NCBI GenBank assembly: GCA_016841675.1
Contig: JAENYQ010000001.1
Coordinates: forward strand, 100,291 to 164,290
DNA length: 64,000 nt
Direction of reading: 5' to 3'
From: Desulfotomaculum sp.
Lineage (GTDB): Bacteria > Bacillota > Desulfotomaculia > Desulfotomaculales > Desulfallaceae
Within the stretch, counting starts at the first letter, position 1. The number at the start of each line of letters is the position of its first letter. The translations under genes were made by a program, and so were the position numbers. The notes under the pieces were generated by a model. It was not told where the DNA came from. It searched no databases and saw only the letters and a program-made list of their open reading frames with translations. Shown piece by piece: positions 5,128 through 62,644 of the stretch.

Positions 5128-5781
5128 GTGAGCGAGCAAGTTATATGTCAATATTGCGGTAAACCAATCCCCAAAGGCAATATGAATAACTATAGATGGA
5201 AAAGAAGAAAATTTTGTTCCAGAAGATGCGATGGCCTATATAAAAACCATGTTACTAAAGTATTAAGACCTCACCCAATTGACCCCAGCAAACACACAAA
5301 ACTAACATGCCAAAATTGCAGTGTTGAGTTTGAAGTACCTAATTATTTGGTAAGAAAAGGAGCAAGGTTTTGTAGTAAATCGTGTGCCGCTGCATCTAGG
5401 CGTAAAAACAAGTTTAGGGATTTTAATGGAAAAAGATATAGATTAAATCCAAATGGATATTATTATGCGGACGATAATTCAAGACTGTGCAGAGATGTAT
5501 GGGAATATCATAATGGGCAAATACCTGCGGGGTATATTATTCACCACATTGATGGCAATAAAGGCAATGACGATATAAATAACCTTCAGATGATGAAAGA
5601 AGCAGAACACCTTAGAATGCATAACCTAACTCCAGAATATCGTTATGTTACATGTCAATATTGTGGTAAAACTATTAAGCGGAAAAAGAGAAATGTATGG
5701 GCTGGTCACACTAAATATTGTTCCAGTGCTTGTGCCAACAAACATAAACCAATTTTAAGGAAATTAAGGAAAGAGGCTTGA
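5128..5781 (+). CDS. HNH endonuclease with zinc fingers, 217 aa
   Basis: GTG start after GGGGTAGCAAGGTG spacing. Three CxxC...C/H modules surround an HNH core: CQYCGK near the N-terminus, CQNCSVEF in the middle and CQYCGKTIKRK near the C-terminus. The core is GYIIHHIDGNKGNDDINNLQ then EHLRMHN, which gives the HH, N and H residues. The arrangement is typical of free-standing phage homing endonucleases. Its position, separating the two parts of a Rad50-like ATPase, fits homing into this locus, although the split could also be older than the insertion. It cleaves DNA; the target is unknown. Confidence 0.8.
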   Translation: MSEQVICQYCGKPIPKGNMNNYRWKRRKFCSRRCDGLYKNHVTKVLRPHPIDPSKHTKLTCQNCSVEFEVPNYLVRKGARFCSKSCAAASRRKNKFRDFNGKRYRLNPNGYYYADDNSRLCRDVWEYHNGQIPAGYIIHHIDGNKGNDDINNLQMMKEAEHLRMHNLTPEYRYVTCQYCGKTIKRKKRNVWAGHTKYCSSACANKHKPILRKLRKEA

Positions 5782-11768: not shown

Positions 11769-12165
11769 GTGGGGTGATAGTAGAAAATACACATGCTGCA
11801 ATAATCCGTCATCACCCGGTTACCATCACAACCTAACGCAGGAATTGCTTGGTATGAATGATTTGCCGAAAGGTGAATGCCGGAACAGAAAAAATAAAAT
11901 CAAAAAAGAGGAAGTAAAAGATGAAGTTGTTTGGTTTCGGTTAGAGGATGGGGAATGGTGGCCGGTTGGTATTAGGAGTACAAACCATGCCCCGCAAATG
12001 CCACCTTTAAAGTTTAAACGACGGTATAAAGCAAAGTGGGTCGATGGTAAGAGGTTTAACCAGACAAAATTGCGTCGGAACTTAGTGAATATGGGTAAGT
12101 TGTTAGTTGGCATGGGTCTATGGTGTGCGTTTTGGTGGTTATTTGGAAAGGGGATAACTAATTGA
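11761..12165 (+). CDS. small protein with C-terminal membrane segment, 134 aa
   Basis: It overlaps the previous gene by 8 bp and the dCMP deaminase by 4 bp. The body is basic and polar. The last about 22 residues ([20 protein letters not shown]) form a Trp-rich hydrophobic helix, suggesting a tail-anchored membrane protein. The function is not recognised. Confidence 0.55.
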
Positions 12166-13766
12166 GCAATAATAATTCAGTGAGGCCATCGTGGGACGAT
12201 ACATTCATGCAGGTGGCCGATGTGGTGGCGCAGCGGTCAACTTGTTTACGGCGCAAGGTGGGCGCGGTGTTAGTTAAGGATAGGCATATTATTGCCACTG
12301 GGTATAACGGGGCGCCGGCGGGTTTGCCGCATTGCATAGACACCAAAAGATGTTTGAGGGAAACGCTAAGAGTACCATCAGGCGAGCGCCATGAAATCTG
12401 TTTATCTGGTAATACGGTTATTAAATTACTGGATGGTACCTATAAAACAATTAAAGAACTAGCTCAAAGTGGTAATGATATTTGGGTTTATTCAGTCGAT
12501 ACGGCAACGGGTAAAATTGTTCCCGCACTTGCCACTAATCCAAGAATGACAGGGTGTAGGGATGATCTGGTTCGGGTTACGCTAGATAATGGTAAATATT
12601 TTACATGCACAAAAGATCATAAGGTACTATTAAGAAATTGTCATTATTGTGAAGCGGGCCAACTTAAACCCGGTAGCAGTTTGATGCCCATGCATTACAA
12701 TTTTTCTGCCAATAATGGATATGAAAGTATTTCCAATACCATCAAGGCAAGGAAAGAAAAATGGCAAAATGATTGGATTGGAGAAACCTACTCAATACCA
12801 ACCCACATCCTGGTTTATCGCTTTATAAATGATTGCGATATTGAACTTGGAAATGATTTTTTAATACACCACAAAGACGAGAAATTTAAAAATAATACAC
12901 CAGATAATCTTATCTTACTGACCAGGGGAGAACACGCAAGTATTCATCATAAAAACAACCCAAAAGATAAAGATTTTTATGTAAATATAGGACATCTTGG
13001 CCACATTAAGCAGATAGAAGAGTTAAAAAACAATCCCCAGTTCCTTCATTGTAAGCAAATGATTGGCAAGCAAAACATGACAGCGAATTGGAATGACCCT
13101 GAATTTATTAAGAAGATGCAAAAATTAAATAAGCAAAAAGGCAGGGAACTTTCACAAAAAACAAATAGTAACCCAGAGATTATTAAAAGACGCAAGATTG
13201 GAAGAATTTTAAAGGGTATATCTTATTTAATGTTCCGTAGTCAAGAAGAAGTGAATCACCAAAACTACGAACTCATTAAAAAGAAATACAAAATTAGTTC
13301 CAAGTTGGGCGACACTGGTCCACAGACTCCAAATACTGAAACAATATTAAAATATTTTCCAAGCCTACAAGAGGCAATAGAAGTGGCAAAAACATATAAC
13401 CATAAAGTTATGAAAGTTGAACATTTGACTTGCAAAATGCCAGTTTACGACCTAACGGTTCCGTTATTTGAGAATTTTGCAATCGATCTTGGGGATAACT
13501 CCTGCGTGTTTGTGCATAACTGTCATGCGGTCCATGCCGAGCAAAACACCATCATTCAGGCGGCGATACATGGTCGAGACACCCGGGGCAGTGAGATATA
13601 TCTAACCTGCACCCCTTGCTCGATATGTGCCAAGATACTGGTTAATGCCGGGGTGCGCCGGGTAGTGTACCGGGATGGATATAACGACAAAATGGCAATG
13701 CAGATTCTGGATTTTGGGGGTGTGACTGTTGAAAATTATTCTCCTGGGCAAGATGGGGGCCGGTAA
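12162..13766 (+). CDS. dCMP deaminase interrupted by an intein
   Basis: TTG start with AAGGGG 8 bases upstream. Residues 1-79 and 454-534 join to a 160-residue dCMP deaminase: [12 protein letters not shown] and GYNGAP in the N-extein, HAVHAEQN and the zinc ligands TPCSIC in the C-extein. The enzyme converts dCMP to dUMP, feeding the thymidylate synthase at 14282. Residues 80-453 are an intein, beginning CLSGNTVI and ending VHN before Cys+1. It sits directly before the catalytic HAE motif, so the enzyme should be inactive until splicing. The 3' end overlaps the dNMP kinase by 38 bp. Confidence 0.88.
12399..13520 (+). other. intein with HNH endonuclease domain (374 aa) inside dCMP deaminase
   Basis: The intein starts at Cys80 (codon TGT at 12399) with [13 protein letters not shown], a typical block A, and ends with FVHN, block G, before extein Cys454 (TGT at 13521). 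DHKVLL (block B, with its His) lies near 12620. The centre has [18 protein letters not shown] then EHASIHH, an HNH nuclease core, instead of the more common LAGLIDADG type. All expected splicing residues (Cys1, block B His, terminal Asn, Cys+1) are visible. Confidence 0.88.
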
Positions 13767-21751: not shown

Positions 21752-22201
21752 ATGACAAGAGAAATCATAGTGAATAACTCAGCACCCAGAGAAGCGGGGC
21801 GTTTCGTTACTGGATTTTCGTACTCTCCGGATACTCAGATCAAGCCAGGAGAGCGTCGAAGTCGGGCGACCGAATTTAAACCGGGAGAGCATAGGAGTCC
21901 TACGACAGAGTTTAAGTCTGGTCAACCTGCGCACAATAAACTGCCCGTGGGTACTACTCGTATACGCCGAGAAACACATACGGGCTTGTTGCGCGCATGG
22001 AAAAAGGTGGCTGAACCGAATGTGTGGGTAAAAAGGGCAGTACTGGTCTGGGAATCCATAAATGGACCATTGCCGAAAGGTTGGGTTGTTCACCATGACG
22101 ACCGTAACAGCCTAAACGATTCCATCGGAAACCTCTATGGTTTATCTCGCCGCGACCATGCCGCTGAACACAGAGAGGAGTTGCAAGCATGGATGAACTA
22201 A
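21752..22201 (+). CDS. HNH endonuclease with TEFKPG repeats, 149 aa
   Basis: ATG after AAGCGAGG. The N-terminal 70 residues contain three short repeats of the type TEFKPGE(R/H)RS, the DNA-binding modular repeats often preceding phage HNH domains. The core is LPKGWVVHHDDRNSLNDSIG then SRRDHAAEHR, giving the HH, N and H residues. It overlaps the C5 methyltransferase start by 13 bp. It is likely a homing endonuclease; a nicking role in packaging is less likely because it is far from the terminase. Confidence 0.75.
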   Translation: MTREIIVNNSAPREAGRFVTGFSYSPDTQIKPGERRSRATEFKPGEHRSPTTEFKSGQPAHNKLPVGTTRIRRETHTGLLRAWKKVAEPNVWVKRAVLVWESINGPLPKGWVVHHDDRNSLNDSIGNLYGLSRRDHAAEHREELQAWMN

Positions 22202-28380: not shown

Positions 28381-28992
28381 CTACGCATCCGCCCCTGCCC
28401 GGTTCCGCATCTTATTGGCCAACACTTCGGGGCGTACAGCTAAATATATCATAGTGGTGTTTAGGGATGCATGACCGGCGAGTTCTTGAACCTCACGCAC
28501 GGTCAGGCCATCCTCTAGGCACTCGGTAAAGCAGGTGTGTCTGAAAATGTGTGGGTGGATTTCTTTTTTATCCTTGCCATCCCGGATATAAACACCGGTT
28601 TTTTTACTTAAATCTGCGAAAAAGAATCTAAGCCAGCGTTGATTTAATGGCGTGCCTTTTAATGTGGGGAAAAAATAATCAGACTTGATGCCCTTTTTAG
28701 TAAACCATTCAGCCCGGACCAGTGCCCATTTTTTACACCATTCTAAAGTATCCCAGTCCATGGGAGCATACCTGTCTTTATCGCCTTTGCCAGCCTGGAT
28801 ATAGATAAAACCTTTTTCCAAGTCCATGTCCTCGGTGGTCAGATTACAAACTTCCTGAACGCGCAGTCCAGCCCGGTACATTACCTGCAGGATGGCGCGG
28901 TTTCTTAGGCCGATGGTGGTGCGGATGTTGGGCACGGCCAGGATTTTGGCGGCATCCTCCCGGGAAATGATTTTGGGTAGGTGTTTAGACAA
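28381..28992 (-). CDS. tyrosine recombinase / integrase, catalytic-domain form, 203 aa
   Basis: TTG start with AAGGAG upstream. Catalytic residues are all visible: Arg44 (GLRVQE), Lys69 (AGKGDKD), His148 and Arg151 (HPHIFRH), His174 (LAGHASLNTT) and Tyr183 (MIYLAV). The protein lacks the usual N-terminal core-binding domain and is only 203 aa, so it resembles short XerC/FimB-type enzymes. It could be the phage integrase or resolve genome multimers. It is the last gene of the leftward block. Confidence 0.85.
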   Translation of the reverse strand: MSKHLPKIISREDAAKILAVPNIRTTIGLRNRAILQVMYRAGLRVQEVCNLTTEDMDLEKGFIYIQAGKGDKDRYAPMDWDTLEWCKKWALVRAEWFTKKGIKSDYFFPTLKGTPLNQRWLRFFFADLSKKTGVYIRDGKDKKEIHPHIFRHTCFTECLEDGLTVREVQELAGHASLNTTMIYLAVRPEVLANKMRNRAGADA

Positions 28993-45502: not shown

Positions 45503-46063
45503 ATGTCATTACATTTTAACCGTGAATTATGCAAGCGCGATTTAATGATTGCTTTTTCCGGTGTTGTGCAGGAATTTATTGCCAAAATTGCAAACGAAGC
45601 AGAATCGTCCAAGCCGGTCCCGCCATCATCGGGGATGCCGCATATAAAAATAACTAAAAACGATGCTCATATGATAGGTTGGCATATAGTTGGCCAGGTC
45701 ATGGCAGAAGGTGGATGGGCGGTTATTAGTGAGTTTGGCTCCGGTTCGTTAATGGAATTAGATAATCCGGCCCTTAAACAGTACATAAATTCAGGCTTAT
45801 GGAACTCTACCCGACCACGTTCCCCGGGTGCCCCAATTATGGGCCGGCCACGGGGACCATATAGTGGTTTATTTGGTCAGCGATATTCCAAAGGTAACGC
45901 AGTGGGGCGCAGTTTGGAGCGCAATAGAAAATATCGCCCTATCAAGGGTACGGCATGGTTCCGGGCAATTTTTAAATTAAATCAAATGATATTTTTGCGT
46001 CGGTGCATGATGGTGCTACAGCAGTTTCCAATGCACCGATATATTATTGGTAGCGTTAAATAA
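45503..46063 (+). CDS. HK97 gp10-like neck protein, 186 aa
   Basis: ATG with GGTGGCGG upstream. After an N-terminal helix the product has WAVISEFGSGSLMELDNPAL and a basic middle (RPRGPYSGLFGQRYSKG), like HK97 gp10-type tail-completion proteins that carry a conserved E(Y/F)G motif. The C-terminal part is helical and basic. Confidence 0.55.
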   Translation: MSLHFNRELCKRDLMIAFSGVVQEFIAKIANEAESSKPVPPSSGMPHIKITKNDAHMIGWHIVGQVMAEGGWAVISEFGSGSLMELDNPALKQYINSGLWNSTRPRSPGAPIMGRPRGPYSGLFGQRYSKGNAVGRSLERNRKYRPIKGTAWFRAIFKLNQMIFLRRCMMVLQQFPMHRYIIGSVK

Positions 46064-46097
46064 AGGAAATAGGGAAATAAATGGCGGTGATATATTG

Positions 46098-46493
46098 ATG
46101 CCTGTTTTTGAAGTTTATGATATTCCTAATAGATATTTTTTCGTTTCCGAACAGGGTGAACAGGGTGAAATATTCAGCGCCCAAACGGATTTCATGTTTA
46201 ACCTGGAAGTTAAAGAAATTGACGACATTTTTAGTGTCAATGACGAGTTGTTAAGAAACCTAATGGTTTTGGACTGGTACCCGGCACCACAGCAGCAACC
46301 AGATTATGCAGTGGAATATCCGTATTGGGCAATAAATTACGGCATTGCAATGAACTGGTTAGATAGTTTGGAGCATGATTATATAGTTTTTGACGTTTCA
46401 AGGTACGACTTTTCATTACAGGAAAATGTAAACATTTTAGAATTGCAGGATATCCCGCCTCGGGAGTTTTTGTTTTACGATAATGTAGCTTAG
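46098..46493 (+). CDS. virion-associated protein of unknown function, 131 aa
   Basis: The ATG at 46098 with GGCGGTG upstream is chosen; the longer frame from 46047 overlaps the preceding gene. The product is very acidic and aromatic (FSVNDELLRNLMVLDWYPA). It has no known motif. It precedes the small Ig-like protein and the DGR cluster. Confidence 0.55.
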   Translation: MPVFEVYDIPNRYFFVSEQGEQGEIFSAQTDFMFNLEVKEIDDIFSVNDELLRNLMVLDWYPAPQQQPDYAVEYPYWAINYGIAMNWLDSLEHDYIVFDVSRYDFSLQENVNILELQDIPPREFLFYDNVA

Positions 46494-46541: not shown

Positions 46542-46805
46542 TTGTCTATTCGGGTAGGTGAAACCGTTCCCTGGAAGGTTGTCGTCAAAGACAAAGAAGG
46601 CAACCCATTTACAATTGAAAGCGCAACAATTCAACTTACCGATCCGAGCGATGCAGTTACTGAACCAGTAGCGACCATTTCTGGACACCAGGTGTATTTT
46701 TCTTTTAGCCCGGATGATGTAGGGGATTGGGAAGCGGAATTCACAATTAATATATCTGGTGGGTATGTCAAGAAGCATACCAGTATTAAAACAGTTGAAG
46801 CTTAA
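46542..46805 (+). CDS. small Ig-like/BppU-type virion protein, 87 aa
   Basis: TTG start after GAGGGGG. The product reads VGETVPWKVVVKDKEGNPF, then SATIQLTDPSDAV and VGDWEAEFTINISGGYVKK, the strand pattern of a single Ig-like domain such as the N-terminal domains of baseplate upper proteins. It may anchor or decorate the receptor-binding complex that holds the variable protein. Confidence 0.6.
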   Translation: MSIRVGETVPWKVVVKDKEGNPFTIESATIQLTDPSDAVTEPVATISGHQVYFSFSPDDVGDWEAEFTINISGGYVKKHTSIKTVEA

Positions 46806-46834: not shown

Positions 46835-47416
46835 ATGAGTGGCGTAAATGTGAGAACAGCTAATCAACCACCTCGTCTACCATTAATCGGTTACGATGAA
46901 AACCACGATGCCTTTGCCAACCATGCATTTGTGGTAGCCAGGGTATCATTTACTGGCAACACGGATGCCGATGGTTACATTACAGTAGAACATAAACCAA
47001 TAATTTCTCGTCGCAGGTTACTGGATAACGATGGTAATCTTGATGTTGCCCGGGACATATTGGCGATAGATGGTCTTGGTGTAACGCTTTACGTGGGGAC
47101 CGTCCTGGCCGGCAATGGGGTAGTAAGATTGTATACCGATGCCGAACTGAATACTCCGGCGACTGACGAGGTTGGTTGCGTGCTGACGTACTGGTATCCG
47201 GCCCCCATGGAAGGCACCGTGAACAACGATGGAACGTTTAAGCCATCATTTAATGCCGAGCTAAATGGGAGTATTGCAGAATACGGATGGATAAAAGGTA
47301 AGGCACAACCTGCTCCCATAGAAGATATTGCAATAGGGATAGAGTTTGATACTGTTACAAAAGCAAAAACAAGTTATGTATGGGACAGTGACACTTCCAC
47401 ATGGGAGGTGTGTTAA
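46835..47416 (+). CDS. virion protein linked to the DGR target, 193 aa
   Basis: ATG after GGGCAGGTG. The product is beta-rich (FVVARVSFTGNTDADGYITVEHKP, VTLYVGTVLAGNGVVRLYTD). Its stop touches the start of the variable protein (TAAATG), so the two are probably made together. It could be the platform to which the variable protein attaches; the function is not known. Confidence 0.6.
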   Translation: MSGVNVRTANQPPRLPLIGYDENHDAFANHAFVVARVSFTGNTDADGYITVEHKPIISRRRLLDNDGNLDVARDILAIDGLGVTLYVGTVLAGNGVVRLYTDAELNTPATDEVGCVLTYWYPAPMEGTVNNDGTFKPSFNAELNGSIAEYGWIKGKAQPAPIEDIAIGIEFDTVTKAKTSYVWDSDTSTWEVC

Positions 47417-48862
47417 ATGCCGGGTGCATGGGCTTATGTATTAGCTAATGATTATACCGATGCTAGATTAAAAGAATCTGGCATTAAAAAGTATACTGCC
47501 ATATTCAGTGGTTCCAACCCTGCAGGAGTGCGAGCAGATGACGCTGTAGGCATGATTGCGAATGCAGCGGTTGATGATGCAGTGGTTATAAATGATTTTG
47601 ACGGTGTGCCGTTTTTTAACCGTCCAATGTGCAATGTGTATCACGATGCCGAAGGAAAACCGCACGTAATGGCGTATCGCGGGGAACCCGGATTTGCCTT
47701 TGACGGTGGAACGTTCCCCCCTTATGCTGACCATGGGGAAACGTTTTACGAATGTACACCTTGTGCGTGGAATGGGTCTTACGATGCCCCCAGCGTGACT
47801 GGCACGCCAAGTGAAGGGTATGAACTGTTCGAAATATTCCCAGACTGGAACACAAAAGTTTATTTACCCGCTTATTGGATGTCTACAGTTGACCTGAAGG
47901 CCACATCCAGGAGCGGCACAGTCCCTGATTACAACTCGGTAAATGGGCACATGGATGCTGCCAGAACTTATAACGAAAACGCCCACACGGAAACCATGGT
48001 GGCGCACATGTACGAATACGTTCTGCAACTGGTTGAATTCGCAACTAGGGATTTGCAACTGGTGATGATGGGCGCATCTACGCTATCATATAATAGCGCT
48101 ACCGACTTATCTACTGTTGCGGAAACCGGGGTAAATAGGGTCATCGTAGCAAACGCTACAGCTGATAAGTATGTTGTTGGTCAGTCAATAGTAATCGGTA
48201 CGTCGCAAAACGGCATCCAAATTGCTGACAGGGTAAACATAACAGCTATTGATGTTTACGATGCAGAAAACAAAGCAATTTATTTCAGCGGAGATGCAAA
48301 GGACATAACCGTTGGGTGCTATCTGTCGTCTAGGGCTTGGAACAATGGTGCAACGGACATTGTAGTGGCTTCTAGCGGTTCGCCTGGGAGCAATACAAGC
48401 GGGAAATACCCCTGCATTTGGCGCGGCAAGGTTGATCCATGGGCAGATGCATATTCAGCAATTTGTGACATTCTGATACAGCGTGCCGGAGCCGGAACGG
48501 TAGAAGATCCCTATGTTTATACCCCGCACTACTTGAGTGACCCGCGAAAGTATGCGGCAGGCGTCATTACTGCAGATTATGTCGGGCTTAGATACACGCT
48601 GCCTGATGTAGACGGTTACGCTAAAACGCTTGGTTTTGATTCTCGGTTTAATTTTGCGGCCCTGACCACCGAGGTTGGTGCAAGCAGCACAACCTATTTG
48701 GCTGGGTACTACTATTATCCAAGATACGATGTGTGCGTGGTCTTTGTCGGCGGCTACTGGTACCTTGGGCGTTATTGCTCTCCGGTGTACTTCCTCTGCG
48801 GCATTCACCCGTCGTCCTCGGACATCTCTCGCCTCGCGCGCCTTTTTGTTACCCGGTCTTAG
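47417..48862 (+). CDS. DGR variable protein, C-type-lectin-fold C-terminus, 481 aa
   Basis: ATG with GGAGGTG. The N-terminal about 300 residues belong to a structural or receptor-binding protein of unknown fold. The C-terminal about 170 end in the variable region VCVVFVGGYWYLGRYCSP, YFLCGIHPSSSDISRLARLF. GG-x-W, SPVYF and R-LARLF form the conserved frame of DGR C-lectin domains such as Mtd. Ten positions are codons that are AAC/AAT in the template. The gene lies in the virion module, so it is likely a host-recognition or surface display protein. Confidence 0.88.
   Translation: MPGAWAYVLANDYTDARLKESGIKKYTAIFSGSNPAGVRADDAVGMIANAAVDDAVVINDFDGVPFFNRPMCNVYHDAEGKPHVMAYRGEPGFAFDGGTFPPYADHGETFYECTPCAWNGSYDAPSVTGTPSEGYELFEIFPDWNTKVYLPAYWMSTVDLKATSRSGTVPDYNSVNGHMDAARTYNENAHTETMVAHMYEYVLQLVEFATRDLQLVMMGASTLSYNSATDLSTVAETGVNRVIVANATADKYVVGQSIVIGTSQNGIQIADRVNITAIDVYDAENKAIYFSGDAKDITVGCYLSSRAWNNGATDIVVASSGSPGSNTSGKYPCIWRGKVDPWADAYSAICDILIQRAGAGTVEDPYVYTPHYLSDPRKYAAGVITADYVGLRYTLPDVDGYAKTLGFDSRFNFAALTTEVGASSTTYLAGYYYYPRYDVCVVFVGGYWYLGRYCSPVYFLCGIHPSSSDISRLARLFVTRS
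48731..48847 (+). repeat. DGR variable repeat (VR), 117 bp
   Basis: VR matches the template repeat at 48948-49064 over 117 bases (offset 217) with 15 differences. At every difference the template has A. The observed changes are A to T (8), A to C (4) and A to G (3). The 3' end shared with the template (CGCCTCGCGCGCCTTTTT) is unchanged and corresponds to the initiation-of-mutagenic-homing region; sequences diverge immediately after it. Confidence 0.95.
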
Positions 48863-48869
48863 CGGGGGT

Positions 48870-48889
48870 TTGGGGGCAGCGGCCCCCAA
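48870..48889 (+). promoter_or_regulatory. hairpin/cruciform after the variable repeat
   Basis: TTGGGGGC and GCCCCCAA form an 8-bp stem around a 4-nt loop AGCG, 22 bases after the end of VR and just past the stop codon of the variable protein. In the Bordetella phage DGR a short-stem, 4-nt-loop hairpin in this place increases homing; this element is in the equivalent position. Confidence 0.75.
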
Positions 48890-48947
48890 TAATGTTCTTT
48901 AATAAAACTGTTTTTAAGATAAATAGCTTATAGGGATTAGGTGTGCA

Positions 48948-49064
48948 GTGTGCGTGGTCTTTGTCGGCGGCAACTGGAACAATGGGCGTAATTGCTCTCC
49001 GGTGTACTTCAACTGCAACAATCACCCGTCGAACTCGAACATCAATCGCCTCGCGCGCCTTTTT
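48948..49064 (+). repeat. DGR template repeat (TR), 117 bp
   Basis: TR lies between the variable gene and the reverse transcriptase, same strand, and is not translated in a useful frame. It carries 23 adenines; 20 of them are the first two bases of ten AAC/AAT codons when read in the variable gene frame, so mutagenesis can never make a stop there. Upstream and downstream flanks differ from VR. Confidence 0.95.
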
Positions 49065-49209
49065 TATAAAAACATTGCAAGTTTTTTTAGGCACACCTAA
49101 TTCCTTACCCCTTGGTAAAAATTGTTGTAACGGCAGGGGTTAGTAAGAGGGTAATTTGTAAATTATCCTGCCCAACATCCTTGAAACTATAAAAAAGCCT
49201 GGAGATAAA

Positions 49210-50418
49210 ATGCACTCATATAACGTTGACGATAGGCTAAAAGACCGTGCAATCATTGAAGAAGCTCTTATCAAAACCTGCAAAAGTAAAAGAAAGAAGA
49301 AAACTAGGTCTAACTCAAAATACAAAAAAGCGCAATATATACTATCTCACCTTGATAAATACGTTGAAAAGACGCTTGAGACTGTATTGGCGTTTGAAGC
49401 CATGACAAGAGCAGGAGAGCGTGGTGAGAAAATAAATCCAGAGATACTTAAAAAAGCATACAAGCCGAAGAAATGTGTTCCCTTTATTATTAAAGATGGT
49501 GCGAGTAAAAAGGTAAGAGAAATAACAAGCGTGCCACTGTTCCCAGACCAAGTAATTCACCAACTTATTATAATAGCTGCTCAGCCTGTGTTTATGCGTG
49601 GAATGTACGAATATTCCTGCGGCAGTATCCCGGGCAGGGGAATACACAAGGGCAAGAAATATATTGAAAAAATCATAAACCACCACCGTAGGCACGATAA
49701 ATCAGCCATTAAATACGGGGTGCAGCTGGATATTACAAAATGTTATCCAAGCATTTCTCACAGTCACCTAAAGGGGCAGTTGCGTAAAAAGTTTAGGGGT
49801 AAATTATTTACATGGCTAACCTTTGCAATTATTGATAGTTATTGCTTTACCGTTGTAGATGGTGAGCCGGTTGGTTTACCTATTGGATATTCTACAAGTC
49901 AATGGTTATGTAATTTCGAATTAACATCCATAGATAGTGTGGTAAAAGAGAAGTTAAAAATTAAGCATTATGTGCGTTATATGGATGACATGATTTTCTT
50001 TGGAAGAAACAAAAAGAAGTTGCATCAGGCAGTAGATTTAATAGTTTCATACGCTGCTTCTATAGGGCTGAAGATTAAACGCAATATGCAAGTATTCCGA
50101 TTCGATCATATTAACAAACAAGGAGAACGCCGGGGTCGCGCCCTCGACTTTTTGGGGTTTCGCTTTTTTAGAGATAAGATCATATTAAGAAAGCGCCTTG
50201 CTTTAGCAATTAGAAGGGCAGTCAAAACAATAAGCAAAATGAGAAAGGTTACTGCGCATGCGGCATTGTCATTAATGTCTCGTCTTGGTTGGCTAAGGCA
50301 CTGCAATTCATACAACTTCTATCAAAAGTACGTAAAGCCGTATATCAATATCAGAAAGTTAAAGGGGGTAATCCGACGTGAAAGCCGAGAGCACAGTAAT
50401 GCCAGTTGCGCCGTATGA
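49210..50418 (+). CDS. DGR reverse transcriptase, 402 aa
   Basis: ATG after TGGAGATAAA. Motifs: KKVREITSVPLFPDQVIHQL (RT1-2), YGVQLDITKCYPSISH (RT3, catalytic Asp), LPIGYSTSQWLCNF (RT4, the IGxxxSQ form special to DGR enzymes), then HYVRYMDDMIFFG (RT5, YMDD, about 257-260) and a C-terminal thumb. The 402-aa length is typical. It copies the template RNA with A-specific errors, which then replace VR. No Avd-like helical accessory gene was recognised beside it. Confidence 0.93.
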   Translation: MHSYNVDDRLKDRAIIEEALIKTCKSKRKKKTRSNSKYKKAQYILSHLDKYVEKTLETVLAFEAMTRAGERGEKINPEILKKAYKPKKCVPFIIKDGASKKVREITSVPLFPDQVIHQLIIIAAQPVFMRGMYEYSCGSIPGRGIHKGKKYIEKIINHHRRHDKSAIKYGVQLDITKCYPSISHSHLKGQLRKKFRGKLFTWLTFAIIDSYCFTVVDGEPVGLPIGYSTSQWLCNFELTSIDSVVKEKLKIKHYVRYMDDMIFFGRNKKKLHQAVDLIVSYAASIGLKIKRNMQVFRFDHINKQGERRGRALDFLGFRFFRDKIILRKRLALAIRRAVKTISKMRKVTAHAALSLMSRLGWLRHCNSYNFYQKYVKPYINIRKLKGVIRRESREHSNASCAV

Positions 50419-50731
50419 AATTGAATATGACGGTGAGTGGGCAGTCATAACGTTTTTTGAAAACGTGGTGCCCGTAGCGGTTGAAGAAGACGAAGCGCAA
50501 AAATGGGAGTACGATGAATACCGTTTGCGGATTAAAAATCGTGACAACTTGATAGCCACCCTCGATAGTCATTACGCCGATTGGGTTGACTTTGCCAAAG
50601 CTAGTGAGAACGTGGTGCCGGAAGAAACAGATAGAGAAAAGATTGCCAGGCTGGAAAAAGAGAAGGCGGAGTTAGATGGTGTTATAGGTGACATGGTACA
50701 AGTCTTGGTGGACAAGGGGGTGATCTGGTAA
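50378..50731 (+). CDS. small virion-region protein with coiled coil, 117 aa
   Basis: GTG with AAAGGGGG upstream overlaps the RT gene end by 41 bp. The product starts VKAESTVMPVAPYEIEYDGEW, has a Glu-rich middle, and ends in a helix EKIARLEKEKAELDGVIGDM. This helix resembles the C-terminal coil found in phage tail and tail-fibre-adjacent proteins. An Avd-like role is not supported: Avd is a four-helix bundle rich in basic residues, and this protein is acidic. Confidence 0.55.
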   Translation: MKAESTVMPVAPYEIEYDGEWAVITFFENVVPVAVEEDEAQKWEYDEYRLRIKNRDNLIATLDSHYADWVDFAKASENVVPEETDREKIARLEKEKAELDGVIGDMVQVLVDKGVIW

Positions 50732-50925
50732 TGCCAGAGTATAAGAATTTAGAAAAATACCTTGAAAAAAAAAGCGTGAAGGTAAAAGAAAAAGTTAAGC
50801 CGAGTATTGAATTTCAAAACCTGTCTACCGGCGAGAAGTGGGGCTTGGTAGAGCGGGTACTGGTAGACTTGGGGTACATCGAAAAACCGAAAGGCTGGCC
50901 GAGCGAAGATTTTTTGTTTGATTAG
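50731..50925 (+). CDS. small protein of unknown function, 64 aa
   Basis: ATG overlaps the previous stop (TAATG). The charged N-terminal helix is followed by LSTGEKWGLVERVLVDLGYI. It precedes the broken integrase. No family was recognised. Confidence 0.5.
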   Translation: MPEYKNLEKYLEKKSVKVKEKVKPSIEFQNLSTGEKWGLVERVLVDLGYIEKPKGWPSEDFLFD

Positions 50926-50966: not shown

Positions 50967-51818
50967 TTGGAAGTGATTTCCATTAAGTTTACAGAAGCAT
51001 GGTCGATATACGAAATGGATAAAAAACTGCTAAATTATTCCAAGCACACAATGAAGGGGTATGGGTTACAACTTAAACTCATATCCAGATACCTAAATGA
51101 TATGGATATAGGATCCGTGACTTACGAACAGCTTAAATTTTACCTTGCAGCGCAAAGTCACCTGAAGCCGTCCAGCGTGGCCCACCGAATAAGATTTATT
51201 CAGTCGTTTTTCCGATGGGCCGTTGACGAGGGCCACATATCCAAAAACCCGGCGGTCAGGTTGCGTGAACCAAAATTAGGGCAGAGGATCCCCAAGTTTC
51301 TCACCGAGGAAGATGTAGAAACACTTCGCGAAGCCTGCTCTACGCCACGAGAACACGCAATCATTGAGTTTCTCTACACCAGTGGATGCAGAATCGGTGA
51401 GACTGTGGCCTTGGATAAACTTGCAATCAACTTTCAAAACAACTCAGTTATTGTCCATGGTAAGGGCGACAAAGACCGGGAGGTCTACTTTACAACCAAA
51501 TGCCGGATATGGCTAAAAAAGTATCTTGAATCACGCAGGGACAACGACCCTGCTCTTTTTGTTACCGAACGAGCGCCGCGGCGAATATCAATCTCACAAA
51601 TGCGGGGCATTGTCAAAAAAGTAGCAGACCGGGCTGGAATTGATGCTAACGTTTATCCGCATCGGCTTCGCCATAGCTTTGCTACACACTTACTAAACAA
51701 TGGTGCGCCTATGGAAGCAATACAGTAACTCATGGGCCATGCAAAGGCTGAAACTACCCAGGTGTACGCCCAGTTGTCAGGTGAGCGCCGCAGGGAATTA
51801 TACAAGCGATATTTCTAA
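50967..51818 (+). pseudogene. XerC-like tyrosine recombinase interrupted by an in-frame stop
   Basis: The TTG-started frame has a SAM-like core-binding domain (1-90), Arg142 (GCRIGE), Lys166 (HGKGDK) and His232/Arg235 (HRLRHS). It then meets TAA at 51726-51728, right after MEAIQ. The frame continues LMGHAKAETTQVYAQLSGE to a second stop at 51816-51818, carrying His258 and the nucleophile Tyr267. XerC-like proteins normally read IQ(E/D)LLGHA, so one base change (for example GAA to TAA) fits. Without readthrough the product is catalytically dead. Confidence 0.85.
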
Positions 51819-51896
51819 CATCCACCAGGGCCGGTTTTAATTTTGCAATTCAGATGTAAATGTTCACGATCTATCACCCCGGGAGGTGGATTTTTT

Positions 51897-51962
51897 ATGC
51901 CTTTCCCAACCATTACCATCAACCCAAAGGGGGTGTCCCAATGTCGTCACTTGATATTTTAA
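51897..51962 (+). CDS. possible 21-aa leader peptide before the tail terminator
   Basis: A strong GGGAGG site precedes ATG 51897, which opens MPFPTITINPKGVSQCRHLIF and overlaps the tail terminator start at 51941 in another frame. This looks like a translation-coupling leader or the remnant of a longer gene. Confidence 0.35.
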   Translation: MPFPTITINPKGVSQCRHLIF

Positions 51963-52384
51963 ACGCCCTATGGCTCATTATTGCCACCGACACAGAATTA
52001 TTATTATACCTAAACCTAACCCCCCAATCCACCGTCAATCAAAAAGCGGCCAAGATTCAAAAAGAGCGCGAACCAGACGGACTCGCCAAAAATAACATTC
52101 CACTAATATGCATGTACCCCATGGACGGACTTCCCAACCGTCTCAATTCCATGGTATACGATGCCGAGGTACAGGTTGACATTTACACTGCATCACTTTA
52201 CCAATGTATGCTAATTGGAAAGCGCCTGCAATCACCTAAAGTATGGAACGGCATAGTCCCGCCTGTGCAAAGTGGAGCATCGTTCGAGATGGAATTCATG
52301 GGCGAATTCGCCGGCGAGTCTGACGTTGTTGGAATAAAGAAATACAGTCAGCGATGGGCTTTGGGCGATGTTTTGTGGCGATAG
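51941..52384 (+). CDS. tail terminator / tail completion protein, 147 aa
   Basis: ATG 51941 with AAGGGGGTG upstream. The product begins MSSLDILNALWLIIATDTEL and has a mixed alpha/beta pattern (YDAEVQVDIYT). It directly precedes the tail tube gene, as tail terminators do. The open frame from 51860 includes non-coding leader. Confidence 0.6.
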   Translation: MSSLDILNALWLIIATDTELLLYLNLTPQSTVNQKAAKIQKEREPDGLAKNNIPLICMYPMDGLPNRLNSMVYDAEVQVDIYTASLYQCMLIGKRLQSPKVWNGIVPPVQSGASFEMEFMGEFAGESDVVGIKKYSQRWALGDVLWR

Positions 52385-59731: not shown

Positions 59732-62644
59732 ATGCCATTTCGAATACCTGAACATATAGAAATACGCGATGTCGCCGGTAATGCGGTGGCATTTTTATCC
59801 CCTGACACAGATGGATTAAAAGAGTGTTGGGTTGATATTGAATTAAATCATTCCTCTACTCTTACATTTTCATTACCTAAACAATCTGCAAAGTGGGCTT
59901 ATATTTCCAGTAATTTTAGGATAATTGCTAACGGCAGGGAATATGCAATCTTGAATCCCGATGCAATTACCGACACCAGAGATGGTAAAAAACTTTTTGG
60001 CAAGGTAAGTGCCAACGAGTGTTGGAATCTATTGCGCAAGGAATTCGTTACCGTTTCTAACGATCCTGCCAGTGCCAATCCACCATGGAGTGCTGTTATT
60101 ATACTTTCCGGCGGGGTTGCTGCTGGTGGATATGCACAAGGTAGCGCCGGCAGTGCTTTTACATATTTACTCCAAGGGACGGAATGGAGTGTGGGTGTTG
60201 TAGATGTTAGTGGTACCCACGATTTAGAGAATGAGAAAGAGTCCATCCTTGCTAATATTAACAAAGTGCAAGAAATATGGGGCGGCATCTTATTGTGGGA
60301 CAGTTTAAATAAAACCGTTTCCCTGCGTGATGAATCTCTATGGCAGGAGTATAAGGGTTTTCAAATTAGGTATGCCAAAAACTTGAAGCATATTGAGAGA
60401 ACCATAGATAACGATATTGTTACCAGGCTTTATCCTTTTGGTGCTGACGATCTGGACATTTCCACGGTTAATGGTGGAGAACTTTACCTTGAAAATTTTC
60501 AATCTGCCAATAACATTTATGAGGACATTTATACAAACCAGGATATAACCACCCCGCAAGAGCTTAAGGACAAGGGCACTGAGGTCCTGGATAAGCTATC
60601 AAAACCGCGCAACAATTACCGGGTTGAGATGGTTGATATTCGCTCTCTACCAGAATGGAATCATGAAGATTTAAGCGTTGGCGACATGGCCGATGTTATT
60701 GACGATGATGTGGGTATAGATGCAAGGGCTCGGATTATCCGTCACAAATATAATGTTTTTCAACCATGGTTGTGTGAACTTGAAATTGGCGATCCAATAG
60801 AAAAGTTAGATTCTATACTTTCTGATTCTAGGAATGCCGCCGAGTACATTAAGCGTATATTAAGACCCAATGCCGGTGTTGGCAATATTTTAAAAGGGAT
60901 AATTAACACCCTGGCTACTGAAATTAACGATTCCCGGGGTAGTTACACCCTTGTTGATGGCGTATCAACATGGTTCGAGCGAGATATAGAAGGCGAGCTA
61001 ACCGGCAGTTTGTTAAGAATTACCCCGGAAGGGCTTATTATTTCATCCGATGGTGGGCAAACATGGGAACTTGCCATTAGTGGGTCCGGGGGCGTTAACG
61101 CCTCGGTCATGCGAACTGGGCTATTGTCCGCTTCTGTTGTACAGGTAGGTGCAGATACCACCTTTGAATCAGGTTATGACCCAACATTAATTTCACCAGA
61201 TAAAGTTAATCCTTATTTTGAAAAGGATTTAAAGTGTTGGTCTGCTTCTTATAGTGGTGAGAACCCAAATGAATTAACCTTAGGCTCTATCATTAGTGGT
61301 GTTGGTTCTTGGGGTTCTAAGGTATGGGAACATACCGGAGATAGAAGAATTTTCTACAGGGAAGCTATTCCCATAAATACAAGCAAAGCATATAAAGGTA
61401 GGTTTAAAGTACGACAAACTGTGAACTCATCCGTAGCTGGAACTTCACGCACATATGCAGGTGTTGTATGTTTAGATGCTAATTATCAATACATTATTTA
61501 TAGGTGGTTTATTGCTAATTCACAAACGATAACCGTTGCTAATGGTTGGAAAATATTTGATGGTATAATAAGTGGTGAGGGTACTGCTATTAATACTTTT
61601 CCTGCTGGTACTAAATATGTTCGCCCTGTATTCTTAATTAATTACCAAAGTGGGGATGGAACCGCCCAGGCCGATGGTTTGGAGTTTTTTGATGTTACTG
61701 AAGCTAATGATGCTCAAAATAATTTAGATTCCCATAGTGGTTTACAATCTCCACACAACCTACCTTCTTACTGTAAAATGCAATCAGATGGATTTAAGGT
61801 TTTTGACAGTAGTGATAACCTACGTTGCCATATGGGGCAATATGTGGCAGGGAAATATGGTATTAAGATAATTGATGGTGAAATTTATGCAACAACTTTT
61901 CAATCTGGTGCTGAAGGTGCTACTGATTACGTGCAAATTGGTTCAGGGTGGCAGCCGGTAAGAATAGTAAAAGATGATGTAGAGCAATTAATTATATTTA
62001 GTGATAATATTTGGGGGGCATTTATCGAATGGTCGCATCCTGATTATGGTAGGATGGGACTAATCAACACATTTAATGATGCGCTTGGCAGAGGTTTAAG
62101 ATTAAGCGCTGAGGATAATTACACAGCAGGTAGGACGTTATTGTTAGATGCTAATTTTGTCCAGACCAATTCATCCTATGTTTATTTGGACTATTATATG
62201 GGGGATGTGGATGTAACTGTATGGGGTAATTTTTATGTTACTGATTACAAGGATTGCATGGTGGAAACCGTTAATTATGGTACACGATTTTTAACCGCCC
62301 GTGAATCTCCCGAAGTAAAGTTTATAGATGAGGGCAAAGCGCAACTTACCCAAGGTCAATGTCGAATTAACATTGATCCTATTTTTATTGATTGCGTTGA
62401 ACCGGATACAATAACAACGCCATGGTTGATTCAGCTTACACCATATGCTGATATAAATATTTACGTTGCCGAGATTGGGGTTAATTATATTATTGTACAG
62501 GAACGGACTGGTGGCACTTCTGATGTCCCCTTTGCGTGGTCCTTATCAGCTTTTAGGAAAGGGTTTACTGAACGGTTTAGAACAAGGGATGAAGATGATT
62601 TATTAACTTCCGATTGGGAAGATACTATTACGGAGGGGATTTAA
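59732..62644 (+). CDS. tail tip / Tal-like protein with receptor-binding C-terminus, 970 aa
   Basis: ATG after AAGGTCGGTG. The N-terminal about 370 residues match the phage minor structural (Tal/gp27-like) family: WVDIELNHSSTLTFSLPKQS, then NVQEIWGGIL-like NINKVQEIWGGIL and a KLSKPRNNYRVEMVDI. The rest is beta-rich with Gly/Asn/Tyr-rich segments like side-fibre or carbohydrate-binding domains. It caps the tail and opens on host contact. The following small gene overlaps its stop (TAATG). Confidence 0.8.
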   Translation: MPFRIPEHIEIRDVAGNAVAFLSPDTDGLKECWVDIELNHSSTLTFSLPKQSAKWAYISSNFRIIANGREYAILNPDAITDTRDGKKLFGKVSANECWNLLRKEFVTVSNDPASANPPWSAVIILSGGVAAGGYAQGSAGSAFTYLLQGTEWSVGVVDVSGTHDLENEKESILANINKVQEIWGGILLWDSLNKTVSLRDESLWQEYKGFQIRYAKNLKHIERTIDNDIVTRLYPFGADDLDISTVNGGELYLENFQSANNIYEDIYTNQDITTPQELKDKGTEVLDKLSKPRNNYRVEMVDIRSLPEWNHEDLSVGDMADVIDDDVGIDARARIIRHKYNVFQPWLCELEIGDPIEKLDSILSDSRNAAEYIKRILRPNAGVGNILKGIINTLATEINDSRGSYTLVDGVSTWFERDIEGELTGSLLRITPEGLIISSDGGQTWELAISGSGGVNASVMRTGLLSASVVQVGADTTFESGYDPTLISPDKVNPYFEKDLKCWSASYSGENPNELTLGSIISGVGSWGSKVWEHTGDRRIFYREAIPINTSKAYKGRFKVRQTVNSSVAGTSRTYAGVVCLDANYQYIIYRWFIANSQTITVANGWKIFDGIISGEGTAINTFPAGTKYVRPVFLINYQSGDGTAQADGLEFFDVTEANDAQNNLDSHSGLQSPHNLPSYCKMQSDGFKVFDSSDNLRCHMGQYVAGKYGIKIIDGEIYATTFQSGAEGATDYVQIGSGWQPVRIVKDDVEQLIIFSDNIWGAFIEWSHPDYGRMGLINTFNDALGRGLRLSAEDNYTAGRTLLLDANFVQTNSSYVYLDYYMGDVDVTVWGNFYVTDYKDCMVETVNYGTRFLTARESPEVKFIDEGKAQLTQGQCRINIDPIFIDCVEPDTITTPWLIQLTPYADINIYVAEIGVNYIIVQERTGGTSDVPFAWSLSAFRKGFTERFRTRDEDDLLTSDWEDTITEGI

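Follow-up and report, generated by a model that had tools for sequence, protein, structure and literature searches.

How did a diversity-generating retroelement (DGR) come to lie between the neck and tail genes of a phage, what would it diversify there, and how complete is it when no Avd can be detected beside it? The locus that raises these questions belongs to the 3.84-Mb draft genome (162 contigs) of a Desulfotomaculum sp., of which we analysed one 64-kb stretch (C106:100291-164290; this whole stretch is called the window here, and positions given without a contig name refer to it). The host genome encodes a Spo0A that scores above the family cutoff, and the host is thus probably an endospore-forming member of the Bacillota. 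A 48-bp direct repeat with the end of a tRNA-Arg gene is found at C106:93289 and again at C106:169508, and an integrase gene (C106:93444-94709) lies just inside the left copy; we therefore place the window inside a prophage of ~76 kb. In the preliminary description of this DNA, a gene for a variable protein (VP), its variable repeat (VR), a template repeat (TR) and a reverse transcriptase (RT) had been listed in the order VP-VR-TR-RT, and all of these parts are present where they had been placed. We are highly confident that the locus is a phage DGR without detectable Avd, that it would diversify a probable receptor-binding protein, and that the cassette arrived as a unit. Its identity as a DGR follows from the RT phylogeny, the SQ motif, the restriction of TR/VR differences to adenines, the hairpin after VR and the spacer RNA.

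The surroundings of the locus hold several features of their own. Left of the window, at C106:60000-79000, a second prophage-like virion module with head, tail tube, tape measure and lysis genes lies ~14 kb from the first. Inside the window, the dCMP deaminase gene at 12162-13766 is split by an intein (Intein_splicing 4e-13) that has an HNH-like endonuclease region, and free-standing HNH endonuclease genes at 5128-5781 and 21752-22201 probably encode homing endonucleases. A small tyrosine recombinase consisting of the catalytic domain only is encoded on the reverse strand at 28381-28992; a gene resembling it (216 aa) lies in the matching early region of a related prophage (G052), and its function may thus be conserved in phages.

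VR (48731-48847, forward strand) lies in the 3' end of the VP reading frame and reaches to within 12 bp of the VP stop codon (48860-48862), while TR (48948-49064, forward strand) is non-coding and lies beside the RT gene, in the gap between VP and RT. The two are 117-bp repeats at an offset of 217. They differ at 15 of 117 positions, and all 15 mismatches stand opposite one of the 23 adenines of TR; under random placement of mismatches, an adenine-only pattern of this kind has a probability of 1.6e-13, which bears out the earlier claim that the differences are adenine-specific only. While 15 of the 23 TR adenine sites are changed, all 94 non-A positions are unchanged, and nothing thus points to neutral drift since homing last took place. 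When the IMH and IMH* ends are compared, the last 18 bp (CGCCTCGCGCGCCTTTTT) are the same in VR and TR, and the sequences diverge immediately afterwards. The changed VR sites fall in AAY codons of the VP frame; changes at TR adenines cannot create a stop codon and allow for about 3.7e13 different proteins. Nowhere else in the host genome does such a pair occur: a pattern search returned two hits, VR and TR themselves (control 0), and no further VR copies.

The RT gene (49210-50418, forward strand) encodes 402 aa that match RVT_1 (1.5e-14) and the reverse transcriptase family phrog_1423 (1.2e-80). The protein carries LPIGYSTSQ and a catalytic YMDD, so that the motifs named at the outset (IGYSTSQ and YMDD) are indeed intact; loss of the catalytic triad would have counted against a DGR. 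The SQ that replaces the usual QG is common to 24 of the 25 other non-group-II RTs compared, including BPP-1 Brt; it was found neither in the divergent RT of L040 nor in any of seven group II-like RTs. A maximum-likelihood tree built with known DGR RTs joins the window RT and five uncultivated phage RTs in a clade with 100/100 support, which is nested (100/100) with the RTs of Butyrivibrio phage Closwp03, Faecalibacterium phage Epona and Lactobacillus phage LBR48, that is, inside the DGR clade and among Bacillota phage RTs. It might be argued that the enzyme belongs to a retron, a DRT defence system or a group II intron, and that the repeat pair arose by chance or by ordinary duplication, since weak matches to DRT and group II models do occur; however, the scores against the NCBIfam group II, DRT and retron models lie far below the curated cutoffs (77 vs 300 bits and lower), group II RTs stand far from the window RT in the tree, and the adenine-only pattern speaks against chance. 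We consider such an origin extremely improbable. A scan of genome contigs with the single RT gave no match, and its repetition with an RT alignment gave one Bacillota MAG.

The first inventory had VP, VR, TR and RT right but missed three parts of the locus: a hairpin, a structured RNA and the chaperone-like gene at 50378. The hairpin (or cruciform) follows VR at 48870-48889, 3' of the VP stop codon, with a perfect 8-bp stem and a 4-nt AGCG loop, and it is kept in most relatives. In BPP-1, where an 8-bp GC hairpin with a GAAA loop occupies the same place, the hairpin is required for efficient target recognition, and the loop consensus of phage DGR hairpins is GRNA (PMC3240598); the AGCG loop deviates from this consensus. 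The structured RNA is RT-18 (Rfam RF03021), which occupies 49106-49197 (forward strand) in the spacer between TR and RT and scores 51.1 bits against a gathering threshold of 41.3. It was found in all nine RT-bearing cassette relatives searched, as well as in LBR48 and L004, and was absent from the RT-less L029, L031, L032 and L076. In BPP-1, the spacer brings in the RT-Avd complex and serves to prime cDNA synthesis (PMC12875486). By its place in the locus, RT-18 corresponds to that spacer RNA and may have a comparable function; the BPP-1 RNA belongs to a different family (Phage_DGR, RF03022), instead of which the window has RT-18.

The search for Avd gave a different outcome. A profile made from BPP-1 and Vibrio Avd found none in the window, in the prophage flanks or in the RT-18 cassettes searched; as the same profile does detect Avd beside five DGR RTs from the host's order (L008, L009, L011, L013 and L015), we rejected the idea of an Avd gene nearby. 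The Pfam family PF05635 proved insensitive, missing even BPP-1 Avd, and was abandoned as a test. An N-terminal extension of the RT, considered as a substitute for Avd, was rejected as well: the ~29 extra residues occur in the cassette family, but the RTs of the Avd-less LBR48 and Closwp03 are without them. The five DGRs with Avd are of another type that has an RT-14 spacer RNA, and in the sample of DGRs compared, spacer RNA type and Avd presence co-vary. Phage DGRs without detectable Avd were already known, and among Faecalibacterium prophage types with DGRs Avd was detected in only two (PMC5883640). The word "complete" used of the present DGR is thus justified for VP, VR, TR and RT, but not with regard to Avd.

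It had also been suggested that this is the known DGR design of BPP-1. This holds for its identity as a DGR, as the mtd/avd/TR/brt locus of BPP-1 shares the target-TR-RT logic, a YMDD RT with SQ and adenine-specific mutation; it does not hold in detail, because in BPP-1 Avd lies between mtd and TR, the cassette follows the tail fibres, and the RT is distant from the one described here, which with its spacer RNA belongs to another branch. Lactobacillus phage LBR48 (NC_027990) is closer in that RT-18 lies just upstream of the RT, a gene overlaps the RT 3' end and no Avd is detectable in the stretch searched; the RTs are ~37% identical, and no homology can be recognised between the overlapping gene and 50378. 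Faecalibacterium phage FP_Epona and Butyrivibrio phages Arawn/Closwp03 share the 100/100 RT clade, adenine-only TR/VR differences and the VP-TR-RT order, but their cassettes stand at the tail-fibre end of the virion module and their RTs are 31-39% identical to the window RT; the Epona target has weak similarity to VP, and the Epona spacer RNA is RT-4 rather than RT-18. Further close cassettes are those of L027, L033-L035, L068, L077, L079 and L080, which come from uncultivated phages in IMG/VR and one Bacillota MAG. They have the same VP family, RTs 53-66% identical, the RT-18 RNA and, where the contig extends far enough, a chaperone-like gene downstream; in those with readable context (L027, L033, L035, L077 and L080), the cassette is found close to, or right at, the end with the tail-fibre or baseplate genes, unlike the neck-tail site of the window. 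The host context had been called novel, a view that we do not share, as Bacillota DGR prophages are well described (PMC5883640). Viral DGRs mostly target tail structure proteins and are common in Firmicutes phages (PMC8144416).

The relatives also bear on the question of activity. Adenine-only TR/VR blocks are present in L027, L033, L034, L035, L068, L077 and L080 and in the RT-less L029, while the TR/VR pair of L079 has diverged. L004 and L005 are near-identical phage contigs from different metagenomes that carry an RT-18 DGR; their TRs are identical, and their 130-bp VRs have 20 differences, all 20 at TR adenines, as against 3 differences in the first 6.6 kb outside VR. As read from these sequences, the pattern is one of natural hypermutation in a related RT-18 DGR, and RT-18 DGRs appear to be active despite the lack of detectable Avd; the DGR of the window may be diversifying its target at present. 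The near-identical contigs L067/L068, L031/L032 and L002/L003 have no VR differences. Could the window DGR instead be a relic, its parts intact but its diversification at an end? This would fit with the broken recombinase in the same block, the off-consensus AGCG loop and the repeated loss of RT or TR in relatives, where L029 has TR without RT, L030 has lost TR, and L031 and L076 have neither. Against it stand an RT that is open with all motifs, intact TR, VR, spacer RNA and stem, and the concentration of change at adenine sites with none elsewhere in the repeat. We hold a relic to be rather unlikely.

Two of the decayed relatives show how such parts can be rearranged. At L030:9290-9520, RT and the RT-18 RNA are intact and TR is lost, and the end of VP looks like VR fused to the 3' flank of TR, as expected from VR-TR recombination. 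At L029:9520-9720, a broken spacer comes after TR, and the expected place of the RT is taken by a fragment of VP sequence; this structure is due to deletion, rearrangement or an assembly fault.

What is diversified is the C-terminus of VP (47417-48862, forward strand; 481 aa), a probable receptor-binding protein. VP matches phrog_17147 (2e-30) and phrog_5302, annotated as tail protein (8e-18), and has relatives that are 44-74% identical over most of its length, but no match in Pfam or PDB. Two AlphaFold2 models were of low confidence (mean pLDDT 38.7 and 52.2); Foldseek searches with these weak models gave meaningless PDB matches and four viral matches with E<1e-6, poorly superposed, one of which is named tail collar fiber. 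In hhalign, VP had no match to Mtd and a weak one to the Epona target. A C-type lectin fold would be expected for VP, C-type lectin or Ig folds being characteristic of DGR target domains. The gene that starts at 50378 (50378-50731, forward strand) shares its first 41 bp with the RT gene, and its homologues in relatives follow directly after the RT, or after VP where the RT is missing. The window copy has no Pfam match; members of the family in L029, L030, L068 and L079 end in the Pfam domain Phage_tail_APC (2e-24 to 3e-15), and the product is therefore likely to act as a tail-assembly chaperone for VP. The gene is also present in cassettes without RT and is thus tied to VP and not to the DGR. 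A further small gene (50731-50925, forward strand) also occurs 3' of the cassette in L034 (phmmer E=2e-10).

Since the same phage has a canonical tail spike (59732-62644, TIGR01665 1e-23) and Dit (58977), VP would be an additional binding protein. The presence of this separate spike and Dit, together with the position of the cassette between neck and tail genes, raises the possibility that a genuine DGR here acts on a VP that is a neck, collar or Hoc-like capsid decoration protein, so that surface adhesion rather than tail-tip receptor contact is diversified. Hoc-like capsid decoration proteins are among the non-tail DGR targets known from Faecalibacterium prophages (PMC5883640), and the VP homologue of L076 lies among head genes, as that of L031 lies immediately before the terminase gene. 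In L027, L029, L030, L033, L035 and L080, however, VP follows tape-measure or baseplate genes, the relatives so placed being 49-65% identical, and in L077 it follows tail genes; the tail assembly chaperone domain in the family of its neighbour and the PHROG match to a tail protein also argue against a decoration protein. We give that alternative some tentative weight but favour another role: judged from sequence, VP is most likely a receptor-binding protein. Gene order cannot tell its position on the virion.

The unusual position between neck genes and tail terminator, pointed out in the preliminary description, is borne out by comparison with phages that lack the cassette. A neck or head-tail joining gene (45503-46063) forms the left boundary and a tail terminator-like gene (51860-52384) the right; these two labels rest on gene order, whereas portal, major head protein, tape-measure, Dit and spike are family hits. 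Homologues of 44871, 45503, 51860, 52428 and 53243 are collinear in the related prophage G052:C49, where those of 45503 (64.5% identical) and 51860 (44.5%) are 35 bp apart. In L051-L053 the 45503 homologue is 41% identical, and in L051 and L053 it is directly followed by weak homologues of 51860 and 52428. The cassette proteins are absent from the G052 stretch searched and from L051. As the flanks are adjacent in two related phage lineages, we conclude that the region from 46047 to about 51830 (~5.8 kb) is an insertion. The block includes three small genes upstream of VP (46047-46493, 46542-46805 and 46835-47416), which are absent at the G052 and L051 empty sites and, like the rest of the block, lie on the forward strand with both boundary genes. 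Their products have no useful family; that of 46542-46805 is Ig/MG2-like, the MG2 match being weak and below cutoff, and that of 46835 matches the product of the gene immediately 5' of VP in L067 (E=3e-5), where the genes around VP resemble a baseplate/tail-fibre locus.

At its right end, the block carries the remnant of an XerC-type tyrosine recombinase (50967-51728, PF00589 5e-30) with an in-frame stop ahead of the catalytic Tyr region, so that some decay of the block has taken place. The remnant may be a trace of the arrival of the block; as the mover of the cassette it was rejected, since close copies are lacking in the genome and most relatives have no such gene alongside. The integrase at the end of L028 may belong to the L028 prophage itself.

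We propose that the RT would copy TR RNA along with the RT-18 spacer RNA, making errors at adenines, and that the mutated cDNA would replace VR, the target signal being the GC-rich VR end and the hairpin. At the VP C-terminus this would diversify ten AAY (Asn) codons and one Tyr, one His and one Ile codon. VP would act as a receptor-binding protein whose folding is aided by the chaperone-like product of 50378, and its diversification could allow part of a phage burst to bind altered hosts. The cassette would have come as a unit, most likely from the tail-fibre locus of another phage. More speculatively, and with considerable doubt, one can imagine a self-contained cassette of target, template, RT-18 RNA, RT and chaperone, without Avd, that moves between phages and here inserted at the neck-tail junction to add a second diversifying binding protein, maybe on the neck or collar.

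The novelty lies in an insertion with defined boundaries at the neck-tail junction and in the consistent link to RT-18. The comparison with empty sites implies that a whole unit of binding protein, template, spacer RNA, RT and probable chaperone is transplantable within the virion module. The Rfam family RT-18 is now tied to the spacer between TR and RT in phage DGRs where no Avd is detectable, and the compact cassette makes the function of DGRs without Avd a testable question.
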